Assembly: GCA_030705885.1 (NCBI GenBank)
Contig: JAUZPN010000009.1
Location: 1 to 40,128, forward strand
Direction of reading: 5' to 3'
Length of the DNA: 40,128 nucleotides
Source of the DNA: Bacillota bacterium
GTDB lineage: Bacteria; Bacillota; Clostridia; Clostridiales; Clostridiaceae
The position numbers and the translations under genes were made by a program. Positions 2,915 to 34,586 of this stretch are shown here, in pieces; the first letter of the stretch is position 1; each line of letters opens with the position of its first letter. The notes beneath the pieces are model-generated. The model did not search any database and had not been told where the DNA came from. It saw only the letters and a program-made list of their open reading frames with translations.

Positions 2915-4765
2915 TTACCTCCCACTTTTATTCTTCATTTTATATACCACAGCTAGTATTTCAGCTACAGCTTGATACATATCAGAAGGAATTTCTGAAT
3001 CTATTCGAACTTCATTATATATTAACCTAGCTAAAGGTTTATTTTCTATAATAGGTACATCATTATCCTTAGCAATTTCCTTAATTTTTAATGCCACTCC
3101 TTCTACCCCTTTTGCAACTAATCTTGGTGCTGCTGATTCGCCTTCAGCATATTTTAATGCTACTGCAATATGAGTAGGATTTGTAACTACTACTGTAGCT
3201 TTTGGTACTTGCTGCATCATTCTTTTTGAAGCAAATTCTCTTTGTTTCTGTTTAATTTTTGACTTTATCTGAGGATCTCCTTCTTCTTGTTTATACTCTT
3301 CTTTAATTTCCTGTTTTGTCATCTTTAATTCTTTATTATATTGATAGCGTTGAAATAAATAATCTATCAAAGCTATTATAACCATAATTATAGTTATTTT
3401 AAAGAAAATATTTATAACTAACTTTCCAAATTGTGCAGGTATAGCTTCAAGATTGGAATAATTCATATTGATAATAGTTGTGTAATTGCTTTTTATAAAA
3501 TCGTAACCTATATATCCAAGTATAAAAACTATTACCAAATCCTTCAAAAGTTCTGCAAAAGTCCTAGAAGAAAATATTCTTTTAAAACCACTTAATGGAT
3601 TTAATTTTGATAATTGTGGTTTAATTGCTTCTGGTGAAATCAAAAAACCCGTTTGTAATAAATTTGCTGCAACACCTAAAACCATTATTGGTAATATCAT
3701 TGGCAATATAATTGAAGCTATTTTATATATTGCATTTACAATAATATTTTGAACATATGCATTGGTCAAATTTGTATTACTAATATTTCTCATATACCAA
3801 TCCATAGCGCTTTTTAGACTATTTCCTGCATATCCTCCTAATGATACTAAAACAAGTGTAGCAGCCATAAGGGTTACTGCCAATCCTACTTCTTTACTTT
3901 TTGCTACCTGCCCTTTTTTTCTAGCTTCACTTTTCTTTTTTGGGGTTGCCTCTTCTGTTTTATCATCTGATGCAAAAATAAAAAGTATTGGTGCTGCTCT
4001 AAGCAATTGTTTCAGTATTTCCCAAAGTGTATCAAAAGAACCTAATATAAGCTTTAATAACAAAGGAAGCAGAAAACAAAATGATGTTAATCCAAGTAAT
4101 ATTTTAACAGGCATACCAAGAATCATTACATTCAGCTGTGGAACTGCTCTTGCAATCAGACCCATAGTAAGATCTGTTAATATCATTATCAGTACAATAG
4201 GTACTGCAATTTTCAATCCTATAGCAAAAAACTGTATAAAAGCTTTAATAATTATCATAATAGAATTTTGATTCAATATACTATTTCCAATTTTTATAAC
4301 ATCAAAACTATCAATCAATGCTTCTATCAATACATGATGACCATCCACATTAAAAAAAACCAATATACAAAACCAATATAAAATGTGTTCTAAAAAAGTT
4401 GTACTGCTATTTGCAGTCGGATCATACATGCTTAACATAGAAAAACCCATTTGAGTATCCATGAACTGTCCAGCTAATCTTACAGCAACAAAGCATAGAT
4501 TCGTTACAAATCCCATAGTTAATCCAGTAATAACTTCATTCATGCATTTAATAATCAATTCGTAATTTGTCATAGTTACTGCAATATATGAATGATTAAT
4601 TATTGGAACCATTATTAACGTTAAAATCATTGCAAAGGCAATTTTCACCTGACTTGGTACTCCTGTTGGAAAGAAAACTTGGAGCACACCAAAGAAACTT
4701 ATCATCCTCAAAAAAACAAGAAAAAATGCTAAAAAATATGCAGCGTTAATCAAAATATCTACCAC
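2915..4765 (-). CDS. fliR/flhB: FliR-FlhB fusion, flagellar export gate / substrate-specificity switch
   Basis: This single 616-residue ORF contains two export-gate proteins. Residues 1-265 are FliR-like, with several membrane segments, a PTGVPSQVKIAFAM segment near 33-46 and QLNVMILGMPVKILLG near 210-225. Residues 266-616 are FlhB-like, beginning at DDKTEEATPKKKSEARKKGQ and containing four further membrane segments. The FlhB autocleavage motif NPTH lies at residues 529-532, which is where FlhB cuts itself between N and P when export switches from rod/hook to filament substrates. Such fusions are known in clostridia. The first codon is GTG (4763-4765) with a weak ribosome binding site, and a TTG four codons inside is an alternative start. 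Confidence 0.96.
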   Translation of the reverse strand: MVDILINAAYFLAFFLVFLRMISFFGVLQVFFPTGVPSQVKIAFAMILTLIMVPIINHSYIAVTMTNYELIIKCMNEVITGLTMGFVTNLCFVAVRLAGQFMDTQMGFSMLSMYDPTANSSTTFLEHILYWFCILVFFNVDGHHVLIEALIDSFDVIKIGNSILNQNSIMIIIKAFIQFFAIGLKIAVPIVLIMILTDLTMGLIARAVPQLNVMILGMPVKILLGLTSFCFLLPLLLKLILGSFDTLWEILKQLLRAAPILFIFASDDKTEEATPKKKSEARKKGQVAKSKEVGLAVTLMAATLVLVSLGGYAGNSLKSAMDWYMRNISNTNLTNAYVQNIIVNAIYKIASIILPMILPIMVLGVAANLLQTGFLISPEAIKPQLSKLNPLSGFKRIFSSRTFAELLKDLVIVFILGYIGYDFIKSNYTTIINMNYSNLEAIPAQFGKLVINIFFKITIIMVIIALIDYLFQRYQYNKELKMTKQEIKEEYKQEEGDPQIKSKIKQKQREFASKRMMQQVPKATVVVTNPTHIAVALKYAEGESAAPRLVAKGVEGVALKIKEIAKDNDVPIIENKPLARLIYNEVRIDSEIPSDMYQAVAEILAVVYKMKNKSGR

Positions 4766-10571: not shown

Positions 10572-11033
10572 CTAACTATTTGAACTAATTTGATAAATAT
10601 CACTATATGCAAAATCTTTACTTTCTGTCTTTCCATTTTCAGTAACATCAATGTTTAAGTTAACATTGTCTCCATTTTTTGTTACACTTTTTACTGTACC
10701 TGAAATAAAGTTTCCATTTTCATCAACAGATTTTAATACTACTGTCTTACCAATTAAAGATGCAGCTCCAGATAAAGTCATAGTGTTATTTAAATTAGTC
10801 ATTTGCTCTAAACTTGAAAACTGTGCAAGCTGAGCAACGTATTGTGTTGAGTCTGCAGGATTATCTGGATTTTGATTGGACATTTCTGTTGTCAATATTC
10901 TTAAAAAAGCATTTTTGTCCATATCATTTCCCTGCTTAACAATTTTTGTACCTCTGCTTGTAGCGGTACTTGAGGCATCTGTTACTGCAGTTGTTGCATA
11001 ATTATTAAATGCATTTGTTGTATCGACAGCCAT
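10572..11033 (-). CDS. flgD: FlgD, hook-cap scaffold protein
   Basis: FlgD forms the temporary cap under which hook subunits assemble. The ATG at 11033 is preferred over a TTG at 11051 because the AAGGGGGTGA ribosome binding site lies between them. That gives 153 residues, short for the family but containing the diagnostic N-terminal segment MDKNAFLRILTTEMSNQNP followed by FSSLEQMTNL. A small beta domain follows (GKTVVLKSVDENGNFISGTVKSV-type). The start lies within 20 bases of the fliK stop, so the genes are probably coupled. Confidence 0.95.
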   Translation of the reverse strand: MAVDTTNAFNNYATTAVTDASSTATSRGTKIVKQGNDMDKNAFLRILTTEMSNQNPDNPADSTQYVAQLAQFSSLEQMTNLNNTMTLSGAASLIGKTVVLKSVDENGNFISGTVKSVTKNGDNVNLNIDVTENGKTESKDFAYSDIYQISSNS

Positions 11034-11047
11034 TTCTTCACCCCCTT

Positions 11048-14000
11048 TCAAGCTAAAATATTAATATTGTTTTGTTCATGAACTTCTTCATTATGAACTT
11101 CAATATTAGTATTTATATCATTGTCTCTTCTATTGCTGCTATTTCTTCCATCCTGCTGTCTGCTGAAATTATGGTTATCAGAGTTTTGGTTTAAAAATGC
11201 TGCATCTCCATTATATAAATTAATGTTGAAGCTTTGAATTTTCATATTTTCATTGGTTAGTTTATTAACTATTTCATGTAAATTTGAATTAAGCAAATTA
11301 TAAGTATCTTTATTAGCAGCAGTAACACTTGCTTTTATGATATTGCCTTCCATTGTAAGTTTAATTACCACTTCTCCTAACTCTTTAGGTACAATTTTAA
11401 CTGTCATTTCCTTAATTCCATTTTTATCCATGTACTTAAAATTTTTAATCATATCATCTACAAACTGAGCTTTATTTATATTATATTTTTCTGGTGCTTG
11501 TACAATTTTATTTTCAGGAGCAATCCTTTCAAATTGACTTAAAAAGTTAAAAACTTTAGTCATTTTGTTATCACTTTTACTAGTTTCAGATTCTGATTTC
11601 TCTTTTTTAGGATCTGCTAAACTTATAAGAAGTTTTTCTTCTTTAGATACCTTTTTCGTAGTATCATTAGCAGTACTTACTTGCATTTTATATTCTATAT
11701 GATTTTCTATACCTTGTCTATCTACTTTTGTCTGCACATTTTGGATTAAGTTATCTGCCTTTGAAACATTTAATTTACTATCCTTTATAGAACCTGAATT
11801 ACTATCATTATTTTTAGTTTTTATTTCATTTTTATTTAATGTTTCTACTTCAGATATATTGTCAACTAATATTTCTGCTTTTTTATTATTATCTTTATTT
11901 TCTGGCTTTGATTCAGTAACAATATTTTCTCTTGTTGAAATAGCAGCTTTTAAAGCATCCATTATCCTAGCTGTTAAATTATCATTAAAAGGTTCCCCCT
12001 TTATTGATGAAGTATTAATATTTTTTAAAGTGTCATTTGCTGCATTTGCACTTTCTGATTTAAAATTGCTTTCATGATATTCAGCAGCTTTTGGGTTCTC
12101 CAACTTATCATCATTTTTATGATATTTAAGGACTTCTGCTTTCTCAAACTTATTATCATTTTGATAATATTCAGCAACTTTTGGTTCCTCAGATTTAATA
12201 TTACTTTCATGATATTGATTAGTTTTTAATTTTTCTAATTTAATATCATTTTTGTGATCTTTCGCAGCTTTTGGTTTCTCTAACTTTGAAATACTTTCAA
12301 TAACTTTAGGATCATTAATTACTCCAATATTATTATTAGTTACTAAAATATCATTGGGTACAACCGTTTTAGTTACTTTATCAGTACCATCTATTATCTT
12401 ATTTTTATTAATTGAATCATCTTTATTAGGTATCTCTTTATCTGAAACAAAAGCAACATCATTTGATACTACATTTTTAGTTATTGATGGAATAACACTT
12501 ACAATATCAATTATTTTTTGAGTAATATTATTAGCTAATTTCTCCTTATTATTAGAATCATGAATACCTTTAATATTACCAGTGTCAGGTGTTACTTTAA
12601 TATTATCTTTAATAACATCTTTGATACTGTCAGTTATCATTTGTTTTACAATTTCAATCTGCACAAATGGAATTAACTTTGTAACTTCTTCTTTTAGTTT
12701 AGAATTATTTTTATAGATATCTGGTAATTTTAAATTTTCAAACTCTAATAATTTAGATTCAGACATTCTGCTTACAACTTCATCTGCTAAATCATCAATT
12801 TTCTCATCTATAAATTTAGGTTCATAAGTAATATCATTATAATTTGATAATAATTTTTCTGCAGTTATAGGAACATCCTTTACAATATTAATTATTTTTT
12901 TTGCAATATTAATACTTATTTTTTCTTCTTTATTAGCAGCATCTTTATTAACTAAATTATTAGATGATATTTTCACAGAACTTCTAATTATATTTTTGAT
13001 ATTTTGAATTATTGCTTGTTCTGCTGCTTCTAATTTTATTTGGGGTTTTAACTCAGCAGCTCCTTGTACACTTTGTTTACTTTCATGTGTCAACTTAAAA
13101 TCACTTTGAACAGTATCAGCTTTTACATTACTTACATTCAGTAAGCCAACTTCAGAAATATTTTTAATAATCTGTTTTGATAAATCATTTATTTTTTCAT
13201 CAGTTAAATTTGTTTGATTTACAATATTTTTAGTAACTAGTTCCTTAATCTGATTTTTTATAACAGGTATCCAATCTTTTAAATTAACGCTAATTTCCAA
13301 ACTGCTTTGAATTTCATAATGTTCAGTAGCCTTTGGAGCTTCATTTACCTTAATATCATCAGTAGTTTTTGGAGCTTCTTCTACTTTAATATTTTCAGTA
13401 ACTTTTGGAACCTCATCTGCTTTAATATTATCAACAGTCTTTAAAACTTCTTCTGCTTTAATATTATCAACAGTCTTTGGAACTTCTCCTGCTTTAATAT
13501 TATCAGTAGTCTTTGGAACTTCTTCTGCTTTGATATTATCAGTAATCTTTGGAACTTCTTCTGCTTTGATCTTATCAGTAATCTTTGGAACTTCTTCTGC
13601 TTTGATCTTATCAGTAATCTTTGGAACTTCTTCTGCTTTGATATTATCAGCAGCTTTTGGTGTTTCGTTTACTTTGATATTATCAGCAACTTTTAGAGTT
13701 CCTTCTGTTTTGATATTATTATCAGTTTTCGGTAGTTCCTCCACTTTAATATTTTCAGCAGCCTTTGGAGATTCATTTACCTTAATTTTATCAGTAGTTT
13801 TTGGAGCTTCTCCTGCTTTAACACTATCAGCAACCTTTGGTACTTCTCCTGCTTTAACACTATCAGCAGCTTTTGGTGCTTCGTTTACTTTGATATTATT
13901 ATCAGTTTTCGGAGCTTCCTCTATTTTAATATTATCAGTAACTTTTGGAGCTTCTTCTACCTTAATATTATTAGCAGTCTTTGGAACTTCTTCTCCTTTA

Positions 14001-16714
14001 ATATTATCAGCAGCTTTTGAAACTTCTTCTGCTTTGATATTATCAGCAGTTTTCGGTGCTTCCTCTACTTTGATATTATTAATTGCTTTTGGAGCTTCTT
14101 CTGCTTTAACATTATCAACAGCTTTTGGAACTTCTCCTGCTTTAACATTATCAACAGCTTTCGGAACTTCTCCTGCTTTAACATTATCAACAGCTTTCGG
14201 AACTTCTTCTGCTTTAATATTATTAATTGCTTTCGGAACTTCTTCTGCTTTAATATTATTAATTGCTTTTGGAACTTCTTCTGCTTTAATATTATTAATT
14301 GCTTTCGGAACTTCTTCTACTTTGATATTATCAGCAGTCTCTGGAATTTCATTTACTTTAATATTATCAGTAACTTTTAGAGTTTCTTCTGCTTTAATAT
14401 TATCAACAGCTTTTGGAACTTCTTCTGCTTTAATATTATCAACAGCCTTTGAAATCTCATTCACTTTAATATTATCAACAGTCTTTGTAAATTCTTTTGC
14501 TTTAATATTATCAGTAACTTTTGGAGCTTCTCCAACTTTGAAATTATCAGCAGACTTTGGCATCTCATTTGCTTTGATATTACCAACAGATTTTGGAGCT
14601 TCTTTTACTTTAATATTATCAACAGCTTTAGATTTACCATCTTCTATAATATTATCTAAAACTAAATGTTTAATTATTGAAGAAACAATTTTATTTGAAA
14701 TATTATTAGTTAATATTTCTGCTTTATTATTTGTATTTACTTTGTTATCTGTATTCTGTACTTTATTAACATTACTTTTAATTGCATTACTAATGCATTC
14801 AGCTATTTCTTGTTTTAGTATTTTTACCTTTTCAAACGGAAGTGTATCGTATTTTCCTTGTATATTTTGTTTATTTCCACTACCTTGTATAAAACTACTT
14901 TTATTATTTAAGGTTAATAATCCTGATTGAGATATACTGATAAGAATTTTATCAGCTATTTCATTTATTTTTTCATCAGTTAAATTTGGTTCATTATTAA
15001 TTATCTTGTTAACTAGATTTTGAACTTTATTTTTAACATTAGTGATTTTATTTTGAAAAACATTTATATTTTTAGATTTAGGACTAATCTTTTCTTCTTT
15101 AATATTAATATGATTAGTATCAATTATATCTAGTAATGTTTTATTATCAACTTCTGACTTTGAATTTAATTTTTGCAACTCATTAGTAGTATTTGCTTTA
15201 TTTTTTATAACATCTTTATTATCTGATATTTTCTGTTCTTTAAAATCTGATTGAATATTTGATATCAATTTATGAAATCCTGAAATGTTTGATTTTTTAT
15301 TAGAAATCTGCACTTTATTTTCATAAGCTTCAGATTTTATATCATTAATGTTCAAATCTCCGAATTCATAAATTGTACTAATTATTTTTTTTACAATATT
15401 ATCAGCTGTTGTTTCTATCTTATTATCAATATCAGCATCTTTTAAATTATTAATATTATTTTTTTCTTTAACATTACTTTTTATTGTATTATTGATACTT
15501 GGTTCTATTTCTTTTTTATTATCAGTTTTAGCTTCTGTATTTACATCAGATTTTACTGGAGCTTTAATATCTGGCTTAGTTTCTGCATTTACAACAGATT
15601 CAACCAAAAATTTATTATCAAGCTTAGTTCCTGCCTCAATATCATATTTTACATTCTTAATATCAGCATCTTTTGTTTCCTTAATATCAGTCTTAACTAT
15701 ATCTTTAATTTTCTCAAACACTAATTGTTTCTGTAGATTCTCTACATTAAACTTTGGTAATTCTTCATTTTTCATTTTGATTTCAGCAGTATCATCTTTA
15801 ATATTTGATGATGAATCTAATCCCTCTATAGTTTTATTAGAAGGCTTTATATCATTATTATTCAAATCTTTAGATTCATAAATTGTATCAATAATTTTTT
15901 GTGCTATTTTATTAGCTGCTAAATCCTTATTATCATTTTTAGTTTCTGTATATGATTTTGCTGTAACTTTAATATTTGGCTTAGTTTCTACATCTGCATC
16001 GGATTTTACTGAAACTTTAATGTCTGGTTTAGTTTCTTCATTTATGTTAGCTTTTATCAAAACCTTATTATCTATCTTAGTTTCTGCATTTATATCAGCT
16101 TTTACTGAAACTTTATTATCAGGTTTATTTTCTGATTTAATATCAGAATTTACATTTTTAATACCAGTATCCATTATTTTCTTAATATCATCCTTAATTA
16201 TATCCTTAATTTTCTCAAATACTGCTTGTTTCTGTAGATTCTCTACACTAAGCTTTGGTGATTCTGCACTTTTTATTGTAATTTCAGTAGTATTATCTTT
16301 AGTATTTGATGGATCTAATACGTTTGCAGTTTTGTTGATATCTTTAGTTACTAAACTCAAATTTTCAGGTATTACATTTAAGTCTTCTTCTGAAATACTT
16401 GTATCATTAAAAGAAGATGCTCTTGTAATATCAAGTATAGATTTTGTTATGTCATTTACAGTATTTTTAGTATTTACATTAGATGTATTAATTTCTGCAG
16501 TTTGTTTGTTAATCTTTGACTGAACATTCGATATAAATTTCTCAAATTTTGATAGATTTGTTTTGCTATCTGTCATATCTGATTCAATTACATCATTATT
16601 TTGAGTTTCGTTTAGTATCTTACCAAAAGCATCTTTGGTTTTTGTACTAACATTTGTAATTTTATTGCTTGACATATCTAATATTTTTATATTCTTTGTA
16701 TTAAATACATTCAT
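11048..16714 (-). CDS. fliK: Giant FliK, hook-length control protein (1888 residues)
   Basis: FliK is exported during hook growth, measures hook length and triggers the FlhB specificity switch. The C-terminal ~170 residues carry the FliK switch domain (VDDMIKNFKYMDKNGIKEMTVKIVPKELGEVVIKL, split over about 1728-1762, then a Gln/Asn/Arg-rich tail). The rest is low-complexity Lys/Asn/Asp/Glu/Ile sequence. From the N-terminus it shows two copies of a ~167-residue module (DNA 15345-16300), a DEKINEIADKILISIS-type module, 36 copies of a 12-residue repeat (13328-14623), two more DEKI modules, and five copies of a 15-residue repeat (12035-12259). A very strong AAAGGAGGTGA site precedes the ATG. Typical FliK proteins are about 400-600 residues, so this one is extreme. 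The frame is open throughout, so it is not a pseudogene. Confidence 0.93.
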   Translation of the reverse strand: MNVFNTKNIKILDMSSNKITNVSTKTKDAFGKILNETQNNDVIESDMTDSKTNLSKFEKFISNVQSKINKQTAEINTSNVNTKNTVNDITKSILDITRASSFNDTSISEEDLNVIPENLSLVTKDINKTANVLDPSNTKDNTTEITIKSAESPKLSVENLQKQAVFEKIKDIIKDDIKKIMDTGIKNVNSDIKSENKPDNKVSVKADINAETKIDNKVLIKANINEETKPDIKVSVKSDADVETKPNIKVTAKSYTETKNDNKDLAANKIAQKIIDTIYESKDLNNNDIKPSNKTIEGLDSSSNIKDDTAEIKMKNEELPKFNVENLQKQLVFEKIKDIVKTDIKETKDADIKNVKYDIEAGTKLDNKFLVESVVNAETKPDIKAPVKSDVNTEAKTDNKKEIEPSINNTIKSNVKEKNNINNLKDADIDNKIETTADNIVKKIISTIYEFGDLNINDIKSEAYENKVQISNKKSNISGFHKLISNIQSDFKEQKISDNKDVIKNKANTTNELQKLNSKSEVDNKTLLDIIDTNHINIKEEKISPKSKNINVFQNKITNVKNKVQNLVNKIINNEPNLTDEKINEIADKILISISQSGLLTLNNKSSFIQGSGNKQNIQGKYDTLPFEKVKILKQEIAECISNAIKSNVNKVQNTDNKVNTNNKAEILTNNISNKIVSSIIKHLVLDNIIEDGKSKAVDNIKVKEAPKSVGNIKANEMPKSADNFKVGEAPKVTDNIKAKEFTKTVDNIKVNEISKAVDNIKAEEVPKAVDNIKAEETLKVTDNIKVNEIPETADNIKVEEVPKAINNIKAEEVPKAINNIKAEEVPKAINNIKAEEVPKAVDNVKAGEVPKAVDNVKAGEVPKAVDNVKAEEAPKAINNIKVEEAPKTADNIKAEEVSKAADNIKGEEVPKTANNIKVEEAPKVTDNIKIEEAPKTDNNIKVNEAPKAADSVKAGEVPKVADSVKAGEAPKTTDKIKVNESPKAAENIKVEELPKTDNNIKTEGTLKVADNIKVNETPKAADNIKAEEVPKITDKIKAEEVPKITDKIKAEEVPKITDNIKAEEVPKTTDNIKAGEVPKTVDNIKAEEVLKTVDNIKADEVPKVTENIKVEEAPKTTDDIKVNEAPKATEHYEIQSSLEISVNLKDWIPVIKNQIKELVTKNIVNQTNLTDEKINDLSKQIIKNISEVGLLNVSNVKADTVQSDFKLTHESKQSVQGAAELKPQIKLEAAEQAIIQNIKNIIRSSVKISSNNLVNKDAANKEEKISINIAKKIINIVKDVPITAEKLLSNYNDITYEPKFIDEKIDDLADEVVSRMSESKLLEFENLKLPDIYKNNSKLKEEVTKLIPFVQIEIVKQMITDSIKDVIKDNIKVTPDTGNIKGIHDSNNKEKLANNITQKIIDIVSVIPSITKNVVSNDVAFVSDKEIPNKDDSINKNKIIDGTDKVTKTVVPNDILVTNNNIGVINDPKVIESISKLEKPKAAKDHKNDIKLEKLKTNQYHESNIKSEEPKVAEYYQNDNKFEKAEVLKYHKNDDKLENPKAAEYHESNFKSESANAANDTLKNINTSSIKGEPFNDNLTARIMDALKAAISTRENIVTESKPENKDNNKKAEILVDNISEVETLNKNEIKTKNNDSNSGSIKDSKLNVSKADNLIQNVQTKVDRQGIENHIEYKMQVSTANDTTKKVSKEEKLLISLADPKKEKSESETSKSDNKMTKVFNFLSQFERIAPENKIVQAPEKYNINKAQFVDDMIKNFKYMDKNGIKEMTVKIVPKELGEVVIKLTMEGNIIKASVTAANKDTYNLLNSNLHEIVNKLTNENMKIQSFNINLYNGDAAFLNQNSDNHNFSRQQDGRNSSNRRDNDINTNIEVHNEEVHEQNNINILA
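12035..12259 (-). repeat. Five 45-bp tandem repeats in fliK
   Basis: Five in-frame units of exactly 15 residues run in fliK, each with the pattern [D/Y][H/Y]xN[D/N]xKxEKxKxxx. Examples are YHESNIKSEEPKVAE and YHKNDDKLENPKAAE. They are diverged copies, and the exact 45-bp period keeps the reading frame. Confidence 0.85.
13328..14623 (-). repeat. 36 tandem copies of a 36-bp repeat in fliK (PEVK-like)
   Basis: Counting the translated units gives exactly 36 copies of a 12-residue unit, consensus VDNIKAEEVPKA, with no gaps, filling 1296 bp. Neighbouring units are often identical in protein: INNIKAEEVPKA occurs three times in a row, VDNVKAGEVPKA twice, and TDKIKAEEVPKI twice. Around 13548-13640 adjacent units are also identical in DNA. 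This points to recent slippage or unequal exchange. The Pro, Glu, Val and Lys content resembles titin PEVK segments, which are extended and elastic; that comparison is an inference. Confidence 0.95.
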
Positions 16715-16727
16715 TTTGTCACCTCCT

Positions 16728-17162
16728 TTATGCTTCTTTTCTTCTTATAAATCCATAAAGTGCAAATTCGTCATTATCTTTTTGTTCAATTAAATTTTGT
16801 TCTTTTATAAATAATTTTTCATTTTTTTCTTTCAGCGTTTCTACTGTTTTTCTATCAACCTGCTTCTGTAATAATTCAATTCTTTTTTCTTCAAGTAATT
16901 TATCTTTTTGTTTAACTTCTTCAATTTGCTTTTCTATAGATTCTTTAAGAGTATTTAAATATATTTGTCTAATTTTAATTTCAATAATGGTTTCTTTTTG
17001 AGCAGGCATACTGTATTTTGTATAATCTTCTTTGAGTCTGCTTAACTTTTCTTCTGAAGCATTTTTCTCGTTTTGAGCATCCTTAAATTCTCTTTTACAT
17101 TGCTCTTCAATATCAATCCTAATGTCTAAAAGTTTTTGCAGTCTAAATACATAGCCTTTCAT
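16728..17162 (-). CDS. fliJ: FliJ, export-apparatus stalk protein
   Basis: FliJ is the coiled-coil stalk that links the FliI ATPase ring to FlhA. The ATG at 17162 (144 residues) is chosen because GGAGG lies eight bases before it and the protein then begins MKGYVFRLQKLLDIR, the family's typical N-terminus. Nearly the whole protein is Glu/Lys/Gln-rich helix suited to an antiparallel coiled coil. It lies between fliI and fliK, the usual order. Confidence 0.92.
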   Translation of the reverse strand: MKGYVFRLQKLLDIRIDIEEQCKREFKDAQNEKNASEEKLSRLKEDYTKYSMPAQKETIIEIKIRQIYLNTLKESIEKQIEEVKQKDKLLEEKRIELLQKQVDRKTVETLKEKNEKLFIKEQNLIEQKDNDEFALYGFIRRKEA

Positions 17163-17178
17163 TTCTGTCGCCTCCAAC

Positions 17179-26796: not shown

Positions 26797-28635
26797 ATGT
26801 GTGGAATAGCTGGTTTTATAAATTTAAATTCAGATATAAGAAGCCAAGCTGAAATTATTAAAGCAATGACTGAAACATTAAAAAAAAGAGGACCAGATGA
26901 TGGCGGCTTTTATTTTTCAAAACATGCACTGCTTGGGCATAGAAGATTAGTTGTAGTAGACCCTTCAGGAGGTGCTCAGCCAATGACAAAAACAATAGGA
27001 AATTCTGCATTTACTATTGTATACAACGGTGAGCTTTACAATACTGAAGATGTCAGAAAAATTTTATTAGGAAAAGGTTATACTTTTAAATCTTATTCTG
27101 ATACTGAGGTTTTACTAACTGCATATATAGAATGGGGTAAAGACTGCGTAAATTATATTAATGGAATTTATGCTTTTGGCGTATGGAATGATAAAGACAA
27201 TAATTTGTTTCTTGCAAGAGATCCTTTAGGTGTAAAGCCTTTATTTTATAGCTTTAAAAATGATACACTCATTTTTGGTTCTGAAATTAAAACATTACTT
27301 GCTCATCCAATGATTGAACCTGTTGTAACAAAAGAAGGACTTTCAGATATTTTTGGACTTGGACCAGCCCGTTCACTTGGAAATGGAATTTTTAAAGATA
27401 TAAGTGAAGTACCTCCTGCACACTATTTGTTTTTTGATTCAAATAAAATTACATTAAAAGAATACTGGACTGTTAAGAGTGAACCTCACACTGAAAGCTT
27501 TGAAGAAACCTCAGAGCATGTACGTACTCTTCTTATAGATGCTATAACAAGACAGCTTGGTGCTGACGTTCCAGTGTGCACATTTTTATCAGGGGGTTTA
27601 GATTCTAGTATTATATCAGCAGTAGCATCTACTGAATTTAAGAAAAAAGGAAAGATACTTGATACTTATTCAATTGATTATGTTGGAAATGATATATATT
27701 TTAAACCTACAGAATTCCAGCCAAATTCAGACGAGGTATGGGCTGAAAAAATGTCAGATTTTATTCAAAGTAATCATCATAAAATAGTAATAAGCACTGA
27801 AAACCTGCTTTCTGCTCTTAAAGATGCTGTTTTAGCTAATGATTTACCTGGAATGGCAGATATAGATTCTTCATTATTTTTATTCTGCAAAGAAGTAAGG
27901 AAAAATGCTGTTGTTTCTTTGTCAGGCGAGTGTGCAGACGAACTCTTTGGAGGATATCCATGGTTTAGAAATCCAGAGTATATAAACAGTAATACTTTCC
28001 CATGGTCAAGAGCTGTAAAGGAAAGATGTGAAATATTATCAAAAGATTTAGGAGATCTGCATCTTGAAGAATATGTAGCTTCTAAATATGATGAAACATT
28101 AAAGAAAGTACCAAGACTTGATGGAGAATCACCTTCAGAGCATAGAATGAGAGAACTGTTCTACCTTAATATTAAATGGTTTATGATGACTCTGCTTAAC
28201 AGAAAAGACAGAATGAGTATGTCCAATAGTTTAGAAGTAAGAGTGCCATTTGCTGATTATAGAATTGTAGAATATGCCTTTAATATACCAATGGACATGA
28301 AGTATTACAAGGATAGAGAAAAAGGATTATTAAGATATGCACTTAAAGGACTGCTTCCAAAAGAGATTGTTGAAAGAAAAAAGAGTCCTTATCCTAAAAC
28401 TCACAACCCAAAATATACAGAAATAGTACAAAATACTATGAGAGATATTTTAAATGATAAAAATTCACCAATTCTTCAGCTTGTTGATTTTAATAAAATA
28501 AAAGAAATCACAGAAACTGAAGGCAGAGCCTTTAAAAAGCCTTGGTATGGACAGCTTATGACAGGCCCTCAGCTTCTTGCATATATGATACAGATTAACA
28601 CTTGGCTTAAGGAATATAAGATTAGAATAGTATAA
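26797..28635 (+). CDS. asnB: Glutamine-hydrolysing asparagine synthase, AsnB family
   Basis: The enzyme makes asparagine from aspartate, ATP and glutamine. The 612-residue protein starts MCGIAGF, placing the amidotransferase nucleophile Cys at residue 2. The glutaminase domain continues with KRGPDDGG (30-37), GHRRL (47-51) and YNGELYN (76-82). The synthetase domain has the PP-loop SGGLDSS (265-271) and a LSGECADELFGGYPW segment that binds pyrophosphate. GGAGATG precedes the ATG. Some AsnB relatives amidate cell-wall or natural-product substrates. It is convergent with the biosynthetic cluster and not in its transcript, so free asparagine synthesis is the default reading. Confidence 0.95.
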   Translation: MCGIAGFINLNSDIRSQAEIIKAMTETLKKRGPDDGGFYFSKHALLGHRRLVVVDPSGGAQPMTKTIGNSAFTIVYNGELYNTEDVRKILLGKGYTFKSYSDTEVLLTAYIEWGKDCVNYINGIYAFGVWNDKDNNLFLARDPLGVKPLFYSFKNDTLIFGSEIKTLLAHPMIEPVVTKEGLSDIFGLGPARSLGNGIFKDISEVPPAHYLFFDSNKITLKEYWTVKSEPHTESFEETSEHVRTLLIDAITRQLGADVPVCTFLSGGLDSSIISAVASTEFKKKGKILDTYSIDYVGNDIYFKPTEFQPNSDEVWAEKMSDFIQSNHHKIVISTENLLSALKDAVLANDLPGMADIDSSLFLFCKEVRKNAVVSLSGECADELFGGYPWFRNPEYINSNTFPWSRAVKERCEILSKDLGDLHLEEYVASKYDETLKKVPRLDGESPSEHRMRELFYLNIKWFMMTLLNRKDRMSMSNSLEVRVPFADYRIVEYAFNIPMDMKYYKDREKGLLRYALKGLLPKEIVERKKSPYPKTHNPKYTEIVQNTMRDILNDKNSPILQLVDFNKIKEITETEGRAFKKPWYGQLMTGPQLLAYMIQINTWLKEYKIRIV

Positions 28636-28657: not shown

Positions 28658-29944
28658 TTGGAAAAAGGAGACAACTTAATTAGTTCATCAAGATATAAGT
28701 CTGAACGTGCAAAAGTAAAGAATATTTTTGCTTCAATAAAAAGCTCTAAATCACTATTAAGTTTTTTAGGCCCTGCTTTTATTGTCAGCGTTGCCTATAT
28801 AGATCCTGGAAATTTTGCAGCTAATATCAGCGGCGGTTCCATATTTAATTATAACCTTTTATGGGTTATATTATGGAGTAATATAATGGCAATATTTCTT
28901 CAAATAATATCTGCTAAATTAGGTATTGCAACAGGTAAAAACTTAACACAAATGTGCAGACAGGTATTTTCAAAGAGAATAAACTGGTTCTTATATATTG
29001 CATCAACACTAAGTGCAATAGCAACAACAATGGCTGAATTTTTAGGAGGAGTATTGGGATTTTACTTATTATTCGGCATACCCCTGTCCTATTCAGTCAT
29101 TTTGACTGCAGCAGTAACATTTCTTATAATATACTTACAGAAATATGGTCAAAGAATTATAGAAATTGTAATAACTATGTTTGTTGCAGTCATATGTGTT
29201 TCATATACAATTGAATTATTTCTTGCAAAACCTGAATGGCATCAAGCATTGCTTCACACTATAATTCCATCACTACCAAACAGCAATGCAGTTTTAATTG
29301 CAGTAGGCATGTTAGGTGCTACAGTTATGCCTCATGTTATATACCTTCACTCAGAACTGGTGCAATGCCGTAACAAAAAATTATCATTAAAAGATAAAAA
29401 AAATCATTTACGCATGGAAAAAATTGATATTCTTGTTGCAATGAATATTGCTTATGTTGTAAATGCTGCTATGGTAATAGTCTCAGCTGCAGTATTTTTT
29501 AGAAGAGGATTAACTGTTGACTCAATTGAACAAGCACATAAATCGCTTGAACCGCTTTTAGGCAGGCTCTCAAGTGGAGCATTTGGAGCAGCTTTGCTTG
29601 CATCAGGATTTTCATCATCTTCCGTAGGTGCAATGGCAGGCGAAACAATTATGGATGGCTTTGTAGATGTAAAAATTCCTTTAATAGCGAAAAGATTAAT
29701 AACCATGCTTCCAGGTGTATTAGTTATTGCACTAGGAGTAAATCCCATGAAAGCACTGTTAGTAAGCCAGGTATGCTTAAGTTTTATACTGCCTATTACA
29801 ATAATTTGCATGTTAAAAATCACTAGCAGAAAAGACTTAATGGGAGACTTTGTTAATAAGCCTTTTGTTAAATTTATAGGATGGGTATTTACAATAATGA
29901 TTATTAGTATGAATTTAGTTTTGATATATTTTACTTTTATATGA
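28658..29944 (+). CDS. mntH: Nramp-family Mn2+/Fe2+ transporter (MntH-like)
   Basis: Nramp transporters import Mn2+ or Fe2+ with protons. The 428-residue protein has about eleven hydrophobic segments. The two metal-binding motifs are intact: DPGN in helix 1 (residues 49-52) and ATVMPH in helix 6 (Met224, His226), which is the transition-metal form rather than the Mg2+-type variants. The start is a TTG at 28658 with GAAGGGTG seven bases upstream; I see no better ATG. It begins 22 bases after asnB and is probably in the same transcript. No MntR-type operator was recognised. Confidence 0.93.
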   Translation: MEKGDNLISSSRYKSERAKVKNIFASIKSSKSLLSFLGPAFIVSVAYIDPGNFAANISGGSIFNYNLLWVILWSNIMAIFLQIISAKLGIATGKNLTQMCRQVFSKRINWFLYIASTLSAIATTMAEFLGGVLGFYLLFGIPLSYSVILTAAVTFLIIYLQKYGQRIIEIVITMFVAVICVSYTIELFLAKPEWHQALLHTIIPSLPNSNAVLIAVGMLGATVMPHVIYLHSELVQCRNKKLSLKDKKNHLRMEKIDILVAMNIAYVVNAAMVIVSAAVFFRRGLTVDSIEQAHKSLEPLLGRLSSGAFGAALLASGFSSSSVGAMAGETIMDGFVDVKIPLIAKRLITMLPGVLVIALGVNPMKALLVSQVCLSFILPITIICMLKITSRKDLMGDFVNKPFVKFIGWVFTIMIISMNLVLIYFTFI

Positions 29945-30117: not shown

Positions 30118-30804
30118 TTATCCCATAAATGCATTATTATAAATCTGTTGTAAAGTAATATAATTTACTGGTTCAATTAAATAATATGGAGAGCAGACAG
30201 CTGCACTATATGTATTATCTATATGATAATTTCTTATGTTAAGCAATTCATTATTGTTTTTAACTAAGTATAAAAAAGGTGTTTTCCTTTCACATCGAAA
30301 AGAATCAAGCGGAATTGCTAAACCTAACCCCTTATATTTTATATAACTTTCCTTCATACACCAAATATCAAAAAACAATTTATCACATTCTTCATCTAAA
30401 GCCATTTTAAGAAATTCATATTCTTCTTTTGCAAAAAAACGTTCTGCTAAATCAAAATCACATACTTTAATGTGTTCAATATCTACCCCTATTTTGTAAT
30501 CACTAATTCCACAAAAAACCCAATCCTTTGAATGAGATATATTATAATGAAAATTTTTGTCATTAATTAAATATGGTTTTCCATAATCAGTTACTCCAAA
30601 ACTTATTTTATCATTCATAACTCCAAGTTTTTTAGTTATAAGCTGTCTTATAAGAAGATCTCCATATAATGATCTTTTTCTATCATCAATAAAATGAAAT
30701 TTATTTATTCTATCTTTTTTTTCAGAAGAGATAAGTGAATAAAATTCTTCATACTTTTGTTTTTCTATTGGTTCATTAATATTCAAAGCATATAATTCCA
30801 ACAT
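30118..30804 (-). CDS. Sfp-type 4'-phosphopantetheinyl transferase
   Basis: The enzyme converts apo carrier proteins of PKS/NRPS systems to their active form using coenzyme A. The 228-residue protein has the Sfp signatures GVDIE (106-110, Mg2+-binding Asp108 and Glu110) and WCMKESYIKYKG (148-159, with Lys151, Glu152 and Lys156), plus an N-terminal YGKPYL (74-79) and NISHSKDWV (88-96). Its length fits the Sfp class rather than AcpS. It is the last gene of the cluster and would activate the three carrier domains seen here. A ~107-bp gap with an inverted repeat separates it from the acyltransferase gene. Confidence 0.95.
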   Translation of the reverse strand: MLELYALNINEPIEKQKYEEFYSLISSEKKDRINKFHFIDDRKRSLYGDLLIRQLITKKLGVMNDKISFGVTDYGKPYLINDKNFHYNISHSKDWVFCGISDYKIGVDIEHIKVCDFDLAERFFAKEEYEFLKMALDEECDKLFFDIWCMKESYIKYKGLGLAIPLDSFRCERKTPFLYLVKNNNELLNIRNYHIDNTYSAAVCSPYYLIEPVNYITLQQIYNNAFMG

Positions 30805-30832
30805 ATTTAATTACCTTTATTATTTATTTTAG

Positions 30833-30862
30833 TACATGCAAATCCACATAGATTTGCATGTA
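30833..30862. repeat. 12-bp perfect inverted repeat between acyltransferase and PPTase genes
   Basis: TACATGCAAATC, a 6-base loop, then GATTTGCATGTA. It lies in the 107-bp gap inside the cluster. No U-run follows, so it may be an operator or an RNA processing site rather than a terminator. Confidence 0.55.
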
Positions 30863-30911
30863 TACAAATTACTCTATTTTTCTCCTATCAAAAAGGATAT
30901 TAATATATTAT

Positions 30912-32165
30912 TTATTGTAAAAAATCTTTAAATGTATATATTTCTCCTGATTCCTCAAGGATTTGACTAAACCACTCTTGTTGTTCTGACTTTGGAAGCA
31001 TTTTTGTTTCAAAAATCTTCTTTAGGCATGTTAATGCCTCCCTTTCCAAATCCTCGTTTAAAATACTTTCATTACTTTCTATTTTTTCTTGAATATTTTT
31101 TATGTTATTATAAGGATTTACAACACCTTCTTGATAAGCAGCATTATCCCAGTTTTTATTTGGTGTAGCAACTCCAGCTACAAGACACTTTGTAATTAAT
31201 GTGGGAATATGTTTACTATACATTTCATTTGTTTTATATAACTGAAATATCTCATTTCTCTCACTTTTGTTACTTAAACATATAGATTTTATATTTTCGT
31301 TACAATTTCTTATAATATTAGTAATTAAATTTTTAGGTCCCATCTCAATTATAAGAGTGATTCCCCTATCATCAAAAAAGTCTACTGTCTTTACCCATTG
31401 AACTGGATTAGTAAGATGCATTGATAAATTATTTGCAGTATCGTTTATACATTTATATGGACGGCCTGTAACATTTGAAATAACTGGATATCTAAGTTCT
31501 CCAATTTCTATACTTTCAATCCTATGTTTAAGCTCTTCCGCATACTTACTCATTAAAGGTGAATGGTATGGAGCACTTCCAATTAAAGGAGTTATCTGCC
31601 CACCATTCTTTAATATAATCTCCTCTATCTCCATTAAATCATCAACATTACCTGATATAGATGTTTGATTTGGTGTTGTATAGCTAGAAATATATACCTT
31701 CTTGCCATTTTCCTGAGCTTTTTTACACTCGTTTTCAAGATCTAATGCTTTATAATTTTCAACAATAGTCATACCTCCATTAGTTTCTTTTGTTACTTGC
31801 TCAGCTAACTCAGCTCTAAATTCAACTAATTTTATGGCATCAGAAAATTTAAATACACCTGCACTTGTTAAAGCCAAATATTCACCTAAACTATGTCCTG
31901 CACAAAACTGTGGTACATACCCAATTTCCTGCATAAATACTCTGAATGCTGCAATTCCACTTGTTAATATTGATACATGAGATTCTTTTGTATGTGAAAG
32001 AGTTGATAAAGGTCCTTCAAAACATAACTTCTTCACATCAAACCCTGCTACATCAGATGCTTCTTCAAAAGTTTCTCTTACTATTTTATATTCATCATAG
32101 ATTCCTTGGCACATTCCCACATAATGAGAGCCTTGTCCAGGAAACACAAAGGATAATTTATACAT
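30912..32165 (-). CDS. Free-standing (trans-acting) malonyl-CoA acyltransferase with C-terminal extension
   Basis: The enzyme would load acyl units from CoA onto ACP domains of the megasynthase. The 417-residue protein begins FVFPGQGSHYVGM and has the catalytic GHSLGEY (Ser92) and the active-site His201 in APYHSPL. The AT fold ends near residue 300. About 110 further residues follow (IPTLITKCLVAGVATPNKNW, then Glu/Lys-rich helices), longer than plain FabD; similar tails occur on trans-ATs of Bacillus hybrid clusters. The start overlaps the FkbH-like gene by 8 bases. No AT domain is visible in the partial synthase, which fits trans loading. A housekeeping FabD is less likely given the neighbours. 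Confidence 0.9.
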   Translation of the reverse strand: MYKLSFVFPGQGSHYVGMCQGIYDEYKIVRETFEEASDVAGFDVKKLCFEGPLSTLSHTKESHVSILTSGIAAFRVFMQEIGYVPQFCAGHSLGEYLALTSAGVFKFSDAIKLVEFRAELAEQVTKETNGGMTIVENYKALDLENECKKAQENGKKVYISSYTTPNQTSISGNVDDLMEIEEIILKNGGQITPLIGSAPYHSPLMSKYAEELKHRIESIEIGELRYPVISNVTGRPYKCINDTANNLSMHLTNPVQWVKTVDFFDDRGITLIIEMGPKNLITNIIRNCNENIKSICLSNKSERNEIFQLYKTNEMYSKHIPTLITKCLVAGVATPNKNWDNAAYQEGVVNPYNNIKNIQEKIESNESILNEDLEREALTCLKKIFETKMLPKSEQQEWFSQILEESGEIYTFKDFLQ

Positions 32166-33198
32166 TCAAATCTTCCCCTTCCATTAATTGAATATAATCA
32201 GGTAATTCACCTAACTTATTAAAATCTGCTTTAAGTATTTCTACATTTTCCCTCTGATCAACTTTATAGAATCCTGCAAATTTATATGTAATGTACATTA
32301 CTCTATTTCTATTTGTTGGAACAAATTCTGCTAATAATTCAACATTTGAATCTTTAGCTTTTTTAGCAATAAAGTTTAACATAACAGCTCCAACACCTCG
32401 TGACATAACCCGACAAGACATCAGAAGTAATTTTAGTATCCACTGTGTCTCCTTTTTTTCTATTAAGGCTAATCCTATTTTTCCGTAGTCCCCATACTTA
32501 TCTTTCAATTGCGAAATCAACACACTATAATTATTATCTTTACTACATTTGTCTAATTCTTCATAAGAATAGGTGCACCCTGTTGCATTTAATTGATGAG
32601 TTCTTACAGTAAGCTCTTCTGCACGTGCTAAATCATCTTCATGAACTCTATCAATAATAAATTTCATATCAAGTAATCTTAAAAACTCTTCTTCAGTACC
32701 TTCAAAAACTTCTTTTATATTATTCCTCTTAATATCATTTTGATAGAGAAGTCTTCTATTTTTAGAATCACTTGTTATATAAGAAGGATTAAAAATCTCT
32801 TGCTTTAGAAAAGTTTTTACATCAGTTACATCAAAACATACAATCTCAGGTATCTTATACTTAACCTCGTCCCTTTCAAAAACTTGATCATCTACAAAAG
32901 CAAAAGTGTCAATCCCAATATTTAATAATTCTTGTATTCTTTTTATACCTTCTGATTTTGGATTCCATGAAATCTGAGGATATAAAAAATATTCATCTAA
33001 ACTAAATTCTTTTAACTTCTCCATTACAGTTTCATAATCATTCCTGCTACTTATTGATTGAAGAATTCCTCTAGAATCAAGTGTTTTTATTACTTCAACT
33101 ACTTCAGATTTTATTTTGACATTACTATCCTCAATTAATATTCCATCCCATACAGTATTGTCCAAATCCCAAACAACACATTTTATTTTAGCTGCCAT
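32158..33198 (-). CDS. FkbH-like HAD-IIIC phosphatase / glyceryltransferase
   Basis: FkbH proteins take 1,3-bisphosphoglycerate, remove phosphate and load a glyceryl group on a free-standing ACP. That is the first step toward methoxymalonyl- or hydroxymalonyl-ACP, or glyceryl/lactyl starters. The 346-residue protein has the HAD nucleophile motif VVWDLDNTVWDG (Asp11, Asp13), SSRND (50-54), FVDDQVFERDE (101-111), and a GNAT-like C-terminal domain with MSCRVMSRGVG (260-270). Cys262 could be the acyl-holding cysteine. A strong AAGGAGGAG site precedes the ATG. A free ACP and a 3-hydroxyacyl-CoA-dehydrogenase-like gene lie just upstream, matching the FkbH/J/K set. The acyl-CoA dehydrogenase and methyltransferase of the full set are not in the window. 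Confidence 0.9.
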   Translation of the reverse strand: MAAKIKCVVWDLDNTVWDGILIEDSNVKIKSEVVEVIKTLDSRGILQSISSRNDYETVMEKLKEFSLDEYFLYPQISWNPKSEGIKRIQELLNIGIDTFAFVDDQVFERDEVKYKIPEIVCFDVTDVKTFLKQEIFNPSYITSDSKNRRLLYQNDIKRNNIKEVFEGTEEEFLRLLDMKFIIDRVHEDDLARAEELTVRTHQLNATGCTYSYEELDKCSKDNNYSVLISQLKDKYGDYGKIGLALIEKKETQWILKLLLMSCRVMSRGVGAVMLNFIAKKAKDSNVELLAEFVPTNRNRVMYITYKFAGFYKVDQRENVEILKADFNKLGELPDYIQLMEGEDLNV

Positions 33199-33442
33199 TA
33201 TTCTCCTCCTTATTAAAATTTAATAAATGTAGAAATTCTTGTTCCCTAATATACCTAGATTTCAGAAAAACGTTTTTTTATTATACTATCTTAAATATCA
33301 AAGTTCCACTAAATTTCTAAAAGGAACTTCACTTTGCTATCATTTAGAAATTAATTTGCTGACTCAGCCTTTAAAGATAAATTCTTTCAAATCACACCAT
33401 AAAAGCTGCTTCAACAAATTTTTACTATAGTTGCTGTGGAAC
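33199..33442. other. Gap inside the cluster with interleaved inverted repeats
   Basis: This 244-bp stretch between the ACP and FkbH-like genes has no convincing gene on either strand. It holds two interleaved dyads. One pairs AGTTCC arms at 33302-33307 and 33323-33328. The other pairs TTTAGAAATT-type arms at 33311-33320 and 33343-33352. They cannot both form simple hairpins at once, giving a pseudoknot or switch topology. A TATAAT box follows, pointing toward the FkbH-like gene. Confidence 0.6.
33280..33308 (-). promoter_or_regulatory. Possible internal promoter for the FkbH-acyltransferase genes
   Basis: On the minus strand a perfect TATAAT (33280-33285) lies 17 bases from TGGAAC (33303-33308), a poor -35 match that overlaps an arm of the inverted repeat. 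Transcription would begin about 75 bases before the FkbH-like start. The poor -35 might mean activator dependence. Confidence 0.35.
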
Positions 33443-33676
33443 CTAATTTATCTTAGATTCAATCAATTCACAAATAGAATTTATACTTTTGAATTTTTCT
33501 AAATCCAAATCGTCATTACTTATTTCAACACCAAATTCTTTTTCAATAAATAACACTAATTGCATAGCAAATAAAGAGTTTATAAAATTCTTTTCAAAAA
33601 TATTCTCATCATCTGCTATTTCTTGATTTCTAAAAAACCTCTCCATAAATTTTCTTACTTTTGCTTTAATATTCAT
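33443..33676 (-). CDS. Free-standing acyl carrier protein
   Basis: A 77-residue carrier protein that would hold the extender unit built by its neighbours. The ATG at 33676 is preferred over an upstream GTG because GGAG lies eight bases before it. The phosphopantetheine site is in FINSLFAMQLVLFIE, with NSL where most ACPs have DSL. Helix content and the acidic DDLDLEKFKSINSI segment fit an ACP. It lies 60 bases after the dehydrogenase gene and is the likely acceptor for the FkbH-like enzyme. Confidence 0.9.
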   Translation of the reverse strand: MNIKAKVRKFMERFFRNQEIADDENIFEKNFINSLFAMQLVLFIEKEFGVEISNDDLDLEKFKSINSICELIESKIN

Positions 33677-33736
33677 ATTTTTCACTCCTATATATAATTT
33701 TTTTTGTATAGATATATGATATATACTTATAAATAC

Positions 33737-34582
33737 TTAAAAATACTTATAAAATCCTTCACCACTTTTTCTTCCAAAAAGTTTAGCATCTACCATTTTA
33801 CGTAATAATGGTGCAACTCTATATTTTGGATCTTGATAACTTTCATATAATACATCTAGTGAATTAACTACTGTGTCTAAACCAATTAAATCTGCTGTTT
33901 CTAATGGTCCCATTTTATGTTCAAAACACATTTTAAAAATTGCATCTACATCTTCAGCTGCTGCAACACCATCTTGAACAACATATGCTGCTTCATTCAT
34001 GAGCAGATGTGAAATCCTATTTGAGACAAATCCAGGATAGTCTTCAACAATTATTGGGTGAATTTCTACACTATCTAATAATTCTTTTAATTTTTTTATA
34101 GTATCTTCTGATGTATGATATCCTTTAATTACTTCAGCAGCCTTTTTAACAGGTACAGGATTCATAAAATGGGTTCCAATTACCCTATCAGCCCTATTTG
34201 TAAAACTACCTATTTTAGTAATTGAAATACACGAAGTGTTTACAAGGTAAATACATTCTTTTTTGCAAACACTTTCTAGTTGTTCGTAAACTGTCCTTTT
34301 AACATCAATTATTTCAGGTACATTTTCTATTATCACATCAACTTCATTTAATTCAGAATAATCTTTTGTATATGTAATCCTACTCATTAAACCATCAATA
34401 TTATCATTTTTTTTATCTTTATTAAACATATTTGCAAAACGTATATTGTTACGAATCATCTTTTTACAATTACCTAAAACTTCTTCACTAATATCAAGTA
34501 CAATTACATCATGTTCATAAGCTGCAAACCTTTGTGCAACTCCACTTCCCATTATTCCAGCACCTATAACACCAATTTTCAT
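33737..34582 (-). CDS. 3-hydroxyacyl-CoA-dehydrogenase-family oxidoreductase (FkbK/ZmaG-like context)
   Basis: The family oxidises 3-hydroxyacyl thioesters with NAD+. The 281-residue protein has the Rossmann motif VIGAGIMGSG (5-14), the catalytic region NTSCISIT with Ser117, GTHFMNPVPV with His138, Glu150, and PGFVSNRI. It ends LFGRKSGEGFYKYF, as in 3-hydroxybutyryl-CoA dehydrogenase. Between an NRPS/PKS gene and a free ACP, it more likely oxidises the C3 alcohol of glyceryl-ACP than butyryl-pathway substrates. Its ribosome binding site lies in the last codons of the synthase gene (GAGGGGG), so it is translationally coupled to it. Confidence 0.9.
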   Translation of the reverse strand: MKIGVIGAGIMGSGVAQRFAAYEHDVIVLDISEEVLGNCKKMIRNNIRFANMFNKDKKNDNIDGLMSRITYTKDYSELNEVDVIIENVPEIIDVKRTVYEQLESVCKKECIYLVNTSCISITKIGSFTNRADRVIGTHFMNPVPVKKAAEVIKGYHTSEDTIKKLKELLDSVEIHPIIVEDYPGFVSNRISHLLMNEAAYVVQDGVAAAEDVDAIFKMCFEHKMGPLETADLIGLDTVVNSLDVLYESYQDPKYRVAPLLRKMVDAKLFGRKSGEGFYKYF

Positions 34583-34586
34583 TTTT

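Follow-up and report, generated by a model that had tools for sequence, protein, structure and literature searches.

How far can a molecular ruler be lengthened? FliK and YscP are the best-studied proteins that measure an extracellular structure. While the hook grows, FliK passes out through it, and contact of its C-terminal domain with FlhB flips the export gate. We analysed a window of 40,128 nucleotides (contig JAUZPN010000009.1) from an uncultured member of the Clostridiaceae, in which the fliK gene encodes 1888 amino acids. Is this protein really a FliK, what makes it so long, and what would such a length mean for the hook?

The frame is unbroken. A preliminary description of this DNA had placed the gene at exactly the right coordinates (11048-16714) and left its strand unstated; fliK reads on the minus strand as one uninterrupted frame, and the plus strand across the same positions is stop-rich and closed in frame. 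The window contains no Ns. The good ribosome-binding site claimed in that description is there as well, as the near-perfect AGGAGGTG ahead of the gene, with the start context AAAGGAGGTGACAAAATG. The FliK switch domain that it recognised is also real. Residues 1759 to 1837 match the Pfam family Flg_hook (PF02120; E=1.6e-17, 63.6 bits, Pfam cut-off 29.8), an alignment with relatives shows the usual core PKELGE...IK in the C-terminal part, and in almost every clostridial relative aligned this conserved part is 29-38% identical. For residues 689-1888, AlphaFold2 (45 input sequences) gave a single confident compact domain, at residues ∼1748-1838 (pLDDT >90). The best match of this domain among solved structures is the switch domain of PscP, the needle ruler of Pseudomonas (5cuk; Z 7.8, rmsd 2.8 over 75 residues), and Salmonella FliK-C (2rrl; Z 5.0, rmsd 4.2 over 79 residues) stands in row 7; Z values below 8 can arise by chance, but here rows 1 and 7 are exactly the expected family. 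A search of the PDB with the sequence profile of the domain returned 2rrl as its sole match, though at an E value of only 0.03. Foldseek rows of the metallo-beta-lactamase type were set aside as weak matches to a small beta-alpha domain.

The rest of the chain is another matter. Neither the first 60 nor the first 135 residues, where the export signal and the FlgD/FlgE-binding region would be expected, had a detectable match in the FliK of 58 relatives, and the middle and N-terminal parts tested showed no convincing similarity to other FliKs. Altogether, the 1888-residue protein is confirmed as a genuine, intact FliK with an unmistakable FliK/T3S4 switch domain. The same genome encodes a second FliK-domain protein on another contig (C56). 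Its match, at 22.1 bits, falls under the Pfam cut-off of 29.8, and its gene adjoins a metallophosphoesterase-like gene, with no flagellar operon seen on that stretch. Two FliK-domain matches also occur in several relatives.

Table 1. Positions of the fliK gene, its repeats and neighbouring flagellar genes in the window, and of two genes on other contigs
Feature	Position	Strand	Basis or remark
fliK, giant flagellar hook-length control protein, 1888 aa	11048..16714	-	ORF, Pfam
T3S4/FliK-C substrate-specificity switch domain, aa ∼1759-1838	11198..11440	-	Pfam, AlphaFold2, fold match
Array of 36 in-frame 12-residue repeats, consensus NIKAEEVPKAVD, aa 700-1131	13322..14617	-	
Duplicated 114-aa block, aa 136-249 and 303-416	15465..16309	-	
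15-residue (45-bp) repeats, aa ∼1477-1570	12003..12288	-	
fliJ, export chaperone, immediately upstream of fliK	16728..17177	-	Pfam PF02050, E=4e-22
flgD, hook cap	10572..11051	-	Pfam PF03963, E=1.3e-21
flgE, hook protein, 979 aa	7111..10050	-	Pfam, NCBIfam, AlphaFold2, Foldseek
fliR-flhB fusion	2915..4765	-	NF009411, E=4.5e-279
Protein of 427 aa with weak FliK switch domain	380-1663, contig C56		Pfam, 22.1 bits
fliK of Clostridium algoriphilum	L069:2-1435		Contig terminates inside repeats

The excess length of this FliK is built from repeats of several kinds, all in frame, which we located with TRF and a diagonal scan. The 36-bp array (36.3 copies, TRF score 1184, 79% matches) is far above chance, and there is no frame break in its 36 units. 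Lysine is kept at position 3 in every unit, and glutamate at position 6 and lysine at position 9 are each kept in 35 of the 36. Neighbouring units, which are not independent of one another, give a dN/dS of ∼0.65 (bootstrap 0.54-0.83). Because the array is in frame throughout, keeps these three residues and has this dN/dS, it looks translated and mildly constrained, though we take this as an indication only. Elsewhere in the chain, the two copies of the 114-residue block are 51% identical, the block being itself partly made of 16-residue repeats, and stretches of helix resembling TDEKINDLSKQIIKNISEVGLL appear three times, at residues ∼572, 1152 and 1295. On the plus strand, a 466-aa open reading frame (13530-14930) lies antisense to the array; we considered it as a gene and rejected it, as it is most simply a by-product of a 36-bp repeat that keeps frame on both strands.

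Could the middle of the protein be largely compact and folded, as the preliminary description had offered as one reading of its length? The structure prediction speaks against this. AlphaFold2 placed no compact domain in residues 689-1700, where it predicted only isolated helices and an array lacking structure. Over most of the array there is no predicted secondary structure (pLDDT ∼30); most of the units in its 432 residues hold a proline, and predicted helix is almost nil. A compact middle is also opposed by the composition of the chain, which is charged and aromatic-poor; its first 1760 residues contain roughly one Cys and one Trp. Type III export requires an unfolded chain, which counts against a compact middle as well.

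This FliK is far outside the range of its family. The FliK domain was sought in 207 family genomes and is present in 174. Among the matches listed, most FliK frames are ∼420-570 aa, and the longest, stop to stop, are 1898 (this fliK), 1146, 1081, 854 and 739; a longer frame is possible among the lowest-scoring matches, which are unlisted. Gene-by-gene measurement of 59 neighbourhoods gave a median FliK length of 494 aa (quartiles 456-526), with 1888 aa as the maximum, at a robust z of log length of 14. At 3.8 times the family median, the protein is indeed several times the usual length, as first described. The next longest FliKs in the class and phylum samples, among the matches listed, have 827 and 961 aa, and we know of no FliK longer than 1888 aa. 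The genus of the source organism is represented by one genome in the collection compared. No close named relatives emerged when genomes were scanned with the FliK C terminus, and a plasmid search gave no match. In a literature search that covered few subscription papers, none of the papers mentioning FliK, hook length and Clostridium together had a title on FliK length variation; earlier reports may exist. The tight distribution of FliK length across the family suggests that length matters.

Some relatives have long FliKs of their own. Clostridium psychrophilum DSM 14207 has a FliK of 1144 aa with four tandem 164-aa copies (87-95% DNA identity), and its measured congeners have FliKs of 465, 480, 521, 558 and 595 aa; its assembly has a 248-bp exact repeat, and the copy number is therefore provisional. 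In another family member (G148), a FliK of 1072 aa consists in part of ∼223-aa units that are 80% identical. The FliK of C. algoriphilum is probably longer than the visible 477 aa, because the contig terminates within the fliK repeats. Since the repeat units are unlike between these lineages, elongation has most likely occurred independently, several times.

The genomic setting is that of a flagellar operon. The minus-strand order is fliF-fliG-fliH-fliI-fliJ-fliK-flgD-(Flagellar_put)-flgE ... fliP-fliQ-fliR/flhB-flhA, in which Flagellar_put is a small gene and fliF to fliH, fliP and fliQ were named from their translations only, and the relatives compared have the same flagellar gene order around fliK. 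The end of fliK is overlapped by flgD by 4 bases. The FlhB part of the fliR-flhB fusion carries the autocleavage motif NPTH in its translation, and the FliK switch domain is expected to pair with it. The hook protein is large too. Residues 180-808 of FlgE are predicted by AlphaFold2 to form six inserted tandem beta-alpha domains of ∼104 aa each, its best fold match is the Campylobacter hook (5jxl; Foldseek E=9e-20), and at 979 aa it is the largest of 59 compared. FlgE exceeds 500 aa in 14 other family members, mostly alongside a FliK of ordinary length. In the raw data, longer FliKs go with longer FlgEs (rho 0.37, p 0.004; rho 0.48 for genus medians), but we rejected linked growth of the two proteins, as the correlation is gone with independent contrasts on a FliI tree (r 0.20, p 0.53).

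Beyond the flagellar genes, the window holds an apparent biosynthetic cluster on the minus strand (30118-40094), recognised from translations only. It comprises a Sfp-type phosphopantetheinyl transferase, an acyltransferase, an FkbH-like protein, a 3-hydroxyacyl-CoA dehydrogenase and an NRPS-like protein of 1835 aa with a reductase-like domain at its end. Between this cluster and the flagellar genes, an asparagine synthetase-like gene (26797-28635) and then an Nramp-like metal transporter gene (28658-29944), both named from translations, lie on the opposite, plus strand.

What kind of hook would such a FliK make? In the reading we prefer, units of several kinds, duplicated in tandem and in frame, would have enlarged the ruler region, bringing FliK to ∼4 times the family norm. 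The chain would be exported unfolded, N terminus first, via the hook channel while the hook grows, and its long disordered and helical middle would span from hook tip to export gate. Once the hook was long enough, the switch domain would reach FlhB, here fused to FliR, and export would turn from hook to filament subunits. A ruler of 1888 aa would put the set point at a very long hook. In Salmonella, hooks stay controlled with FliK variants of 363-785 aa and measure 42-135 nm, gaining 0.2 nm per inserted residue (PMC6126814). Extrapolated for 1888 aa, this slope, tested only to 785 aa, predicts a hook of ∼350 nm; a fully alpha-helical extra chain would lower this to ∼280 nm, and a more extended array would raise it. 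The same slope would give hooks of ∼200 nm in C. psychrophilum DSM 14207, ∼85 nm in C. tagluense (FliK of 558 aa) and ∼72 nm in Clostridium sp. CF012 (492 aa). Salmonella lacking FliK forms polyhooks of 363 ± 201 nm (PMC6972891), a mean close to the hook predicted here, and therefore only a narrow length distribution would show control.

The intact frame and strong start, the operon position, the switch domain recognised by both sequence and fold, and the NPTH motif of FlhB all support a ruler that sets a very long hook, as do the unbroken, mildly constrained array, the otherwise tight FliK length in the family, the linear slope in Salmonella, and FliK growth by duplication in C. psychrophilum and G148. 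Against it, the slope is known from helical insertions only, whereas the 432-residue array is proline-bearing and nearly helix-free; the N-terminal 135 residues have no detectable match in relatives; and with phylogeny taken into account, FliK and FlgE lengths are not robustly linked. A 350-nm hook would also be expected to be costly, as longer hooks impair motility in Salmonella, where it falls with FliKs of at least 520 aa (PMC6126814). Inferring export, measuring and hook length from the genes, we put at about even the chances that this is a genuine FliK whose repeat-grown ruler sets a very long hook. We hold more tentatively, at somewhat below even, the specific claim that a natural 1888-residue ruler sets a controlled hook of ∼280-400 nm, at least 5 times the Salmonella hook, with the secreted-ruler mechanism working far beyond its tested range and lengthened by added repeats.

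It is also possible that the switch works and the added repeats are not read linearly, leaving the hook near-normal or broadly scattered in length. The disordered chain may coil or thread untaut, or control may simply be loose, and near-neutral growth by slippage would then be tolerated. We take this seriously, though we would not expect it on present evidence. An array without predicted structure fits such a slack chain, as do its only mild constraint (dN/dS 0.65) and repeat growth that is fast and lineage-specific, with sequences unrelated between species. Loose length control is known from linker deletions in Salmonella FliK (PMC6972891), and the impaired motility of Salmonella with long hooks (PMC6126814) points the same way. 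However, FliK length otherwise varies little across the family, and in Salmonella inserted residues are measured linearly to 785 aa (PMC6126814). We give little credence to a third role, in which the repeats act after export, e.g., by interacting with the thick wall of the cell, and the measuring falls to a different stretch of FliK. The array does resemble the Lys/Glu-rich repeats of Bacillus EntB/EntC (NCBIfam NF040676, E=2e-30), but the match scores 105.8 bits against a cut-off of 780 and covers low-complexity repeats only; we rejected homology to wall proteins of this type, the similarity being compositional. Pfam finds no wall-binding domain in FliK, and the other long FliKs of the family use quite different repeats.

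Or is the true FliK shorter, and the array inflated during assembly? The source genome is a fragmented draft (3.0 Mb, 249 contigs, 78% complete), the tandem 36-bp units include exact repeats of up to 71 bp, and the C. algoriphilum contig that terminates within fliK repeats indicates that such genes trouble assemblers. Still, we find inflation hard to credit. The units have diverged (79% matches), and without the whole array fliK would still encode 1456 aa, more than every other FliK seen. Because the longest exact repeat (71 bp, with none of at least 75 bp) is shorter than ordinary short reads, there are no Ns, and so much length lies outside the array, the repeats are unlikely to be an invention of assembly. 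Short-read assembly tends to collapse repeats, not to expand them. The exact unit count is provisional, the assembly being in 249 contigs, and may be off by some; fliK is very long regardless.

A FliK stretched in this way leads to one of two predictions: its hook exceeds the known controlled hooks several times over in length, or the ruler rule breaks down. The rule that the hook follows its ruler has been tested with engineered proteins only to 785 aa (PMC6126814). Here, one bacterial family has natural rulers of 853, 1072, 1144 and 1888 aa, several of them lengthened by repeat duplication. The suggestion that the 1888-aa protein could meaningfully test the ruler model is well founded. The main value of this FliK is that it points to a natural series of lengthened rulers, which goes well past the engineered range. 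The series offers a direct test of the reach of the rule, and of the reasons for the usual uniformity of hook length, and some of its less extreme members occur in bacteria that can be grown.

How does this system compare with known ones? C. psychrophilum DSM 14207 shares its family, operon order and in-frame tandem duplication, but the repeat unit is unrelated, FlgE is ordinary (315 aa) and FliK is 744 aa shorter. The Campylobacter jejuni hook likewise has an oversized FlgE with extra domains; there they are two distinct domains, whereas here they are six tandem copies of one. The YscP/PscP rulers of injectisome needles have the same switch fold and a length varied through the middle, but the FliK described here, compared with them by its switch domain alone, is far longer and lies in a flagellar operon. 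Salmonella FliK (405 aa, with variants to 785 aa) has the same switch fold and operon setting and is a secreted ruler, as we infer for the protein here. In contrast to it, the 1888-aa FliK has several tandem-repeat families in its middle and a largely unstructured array.
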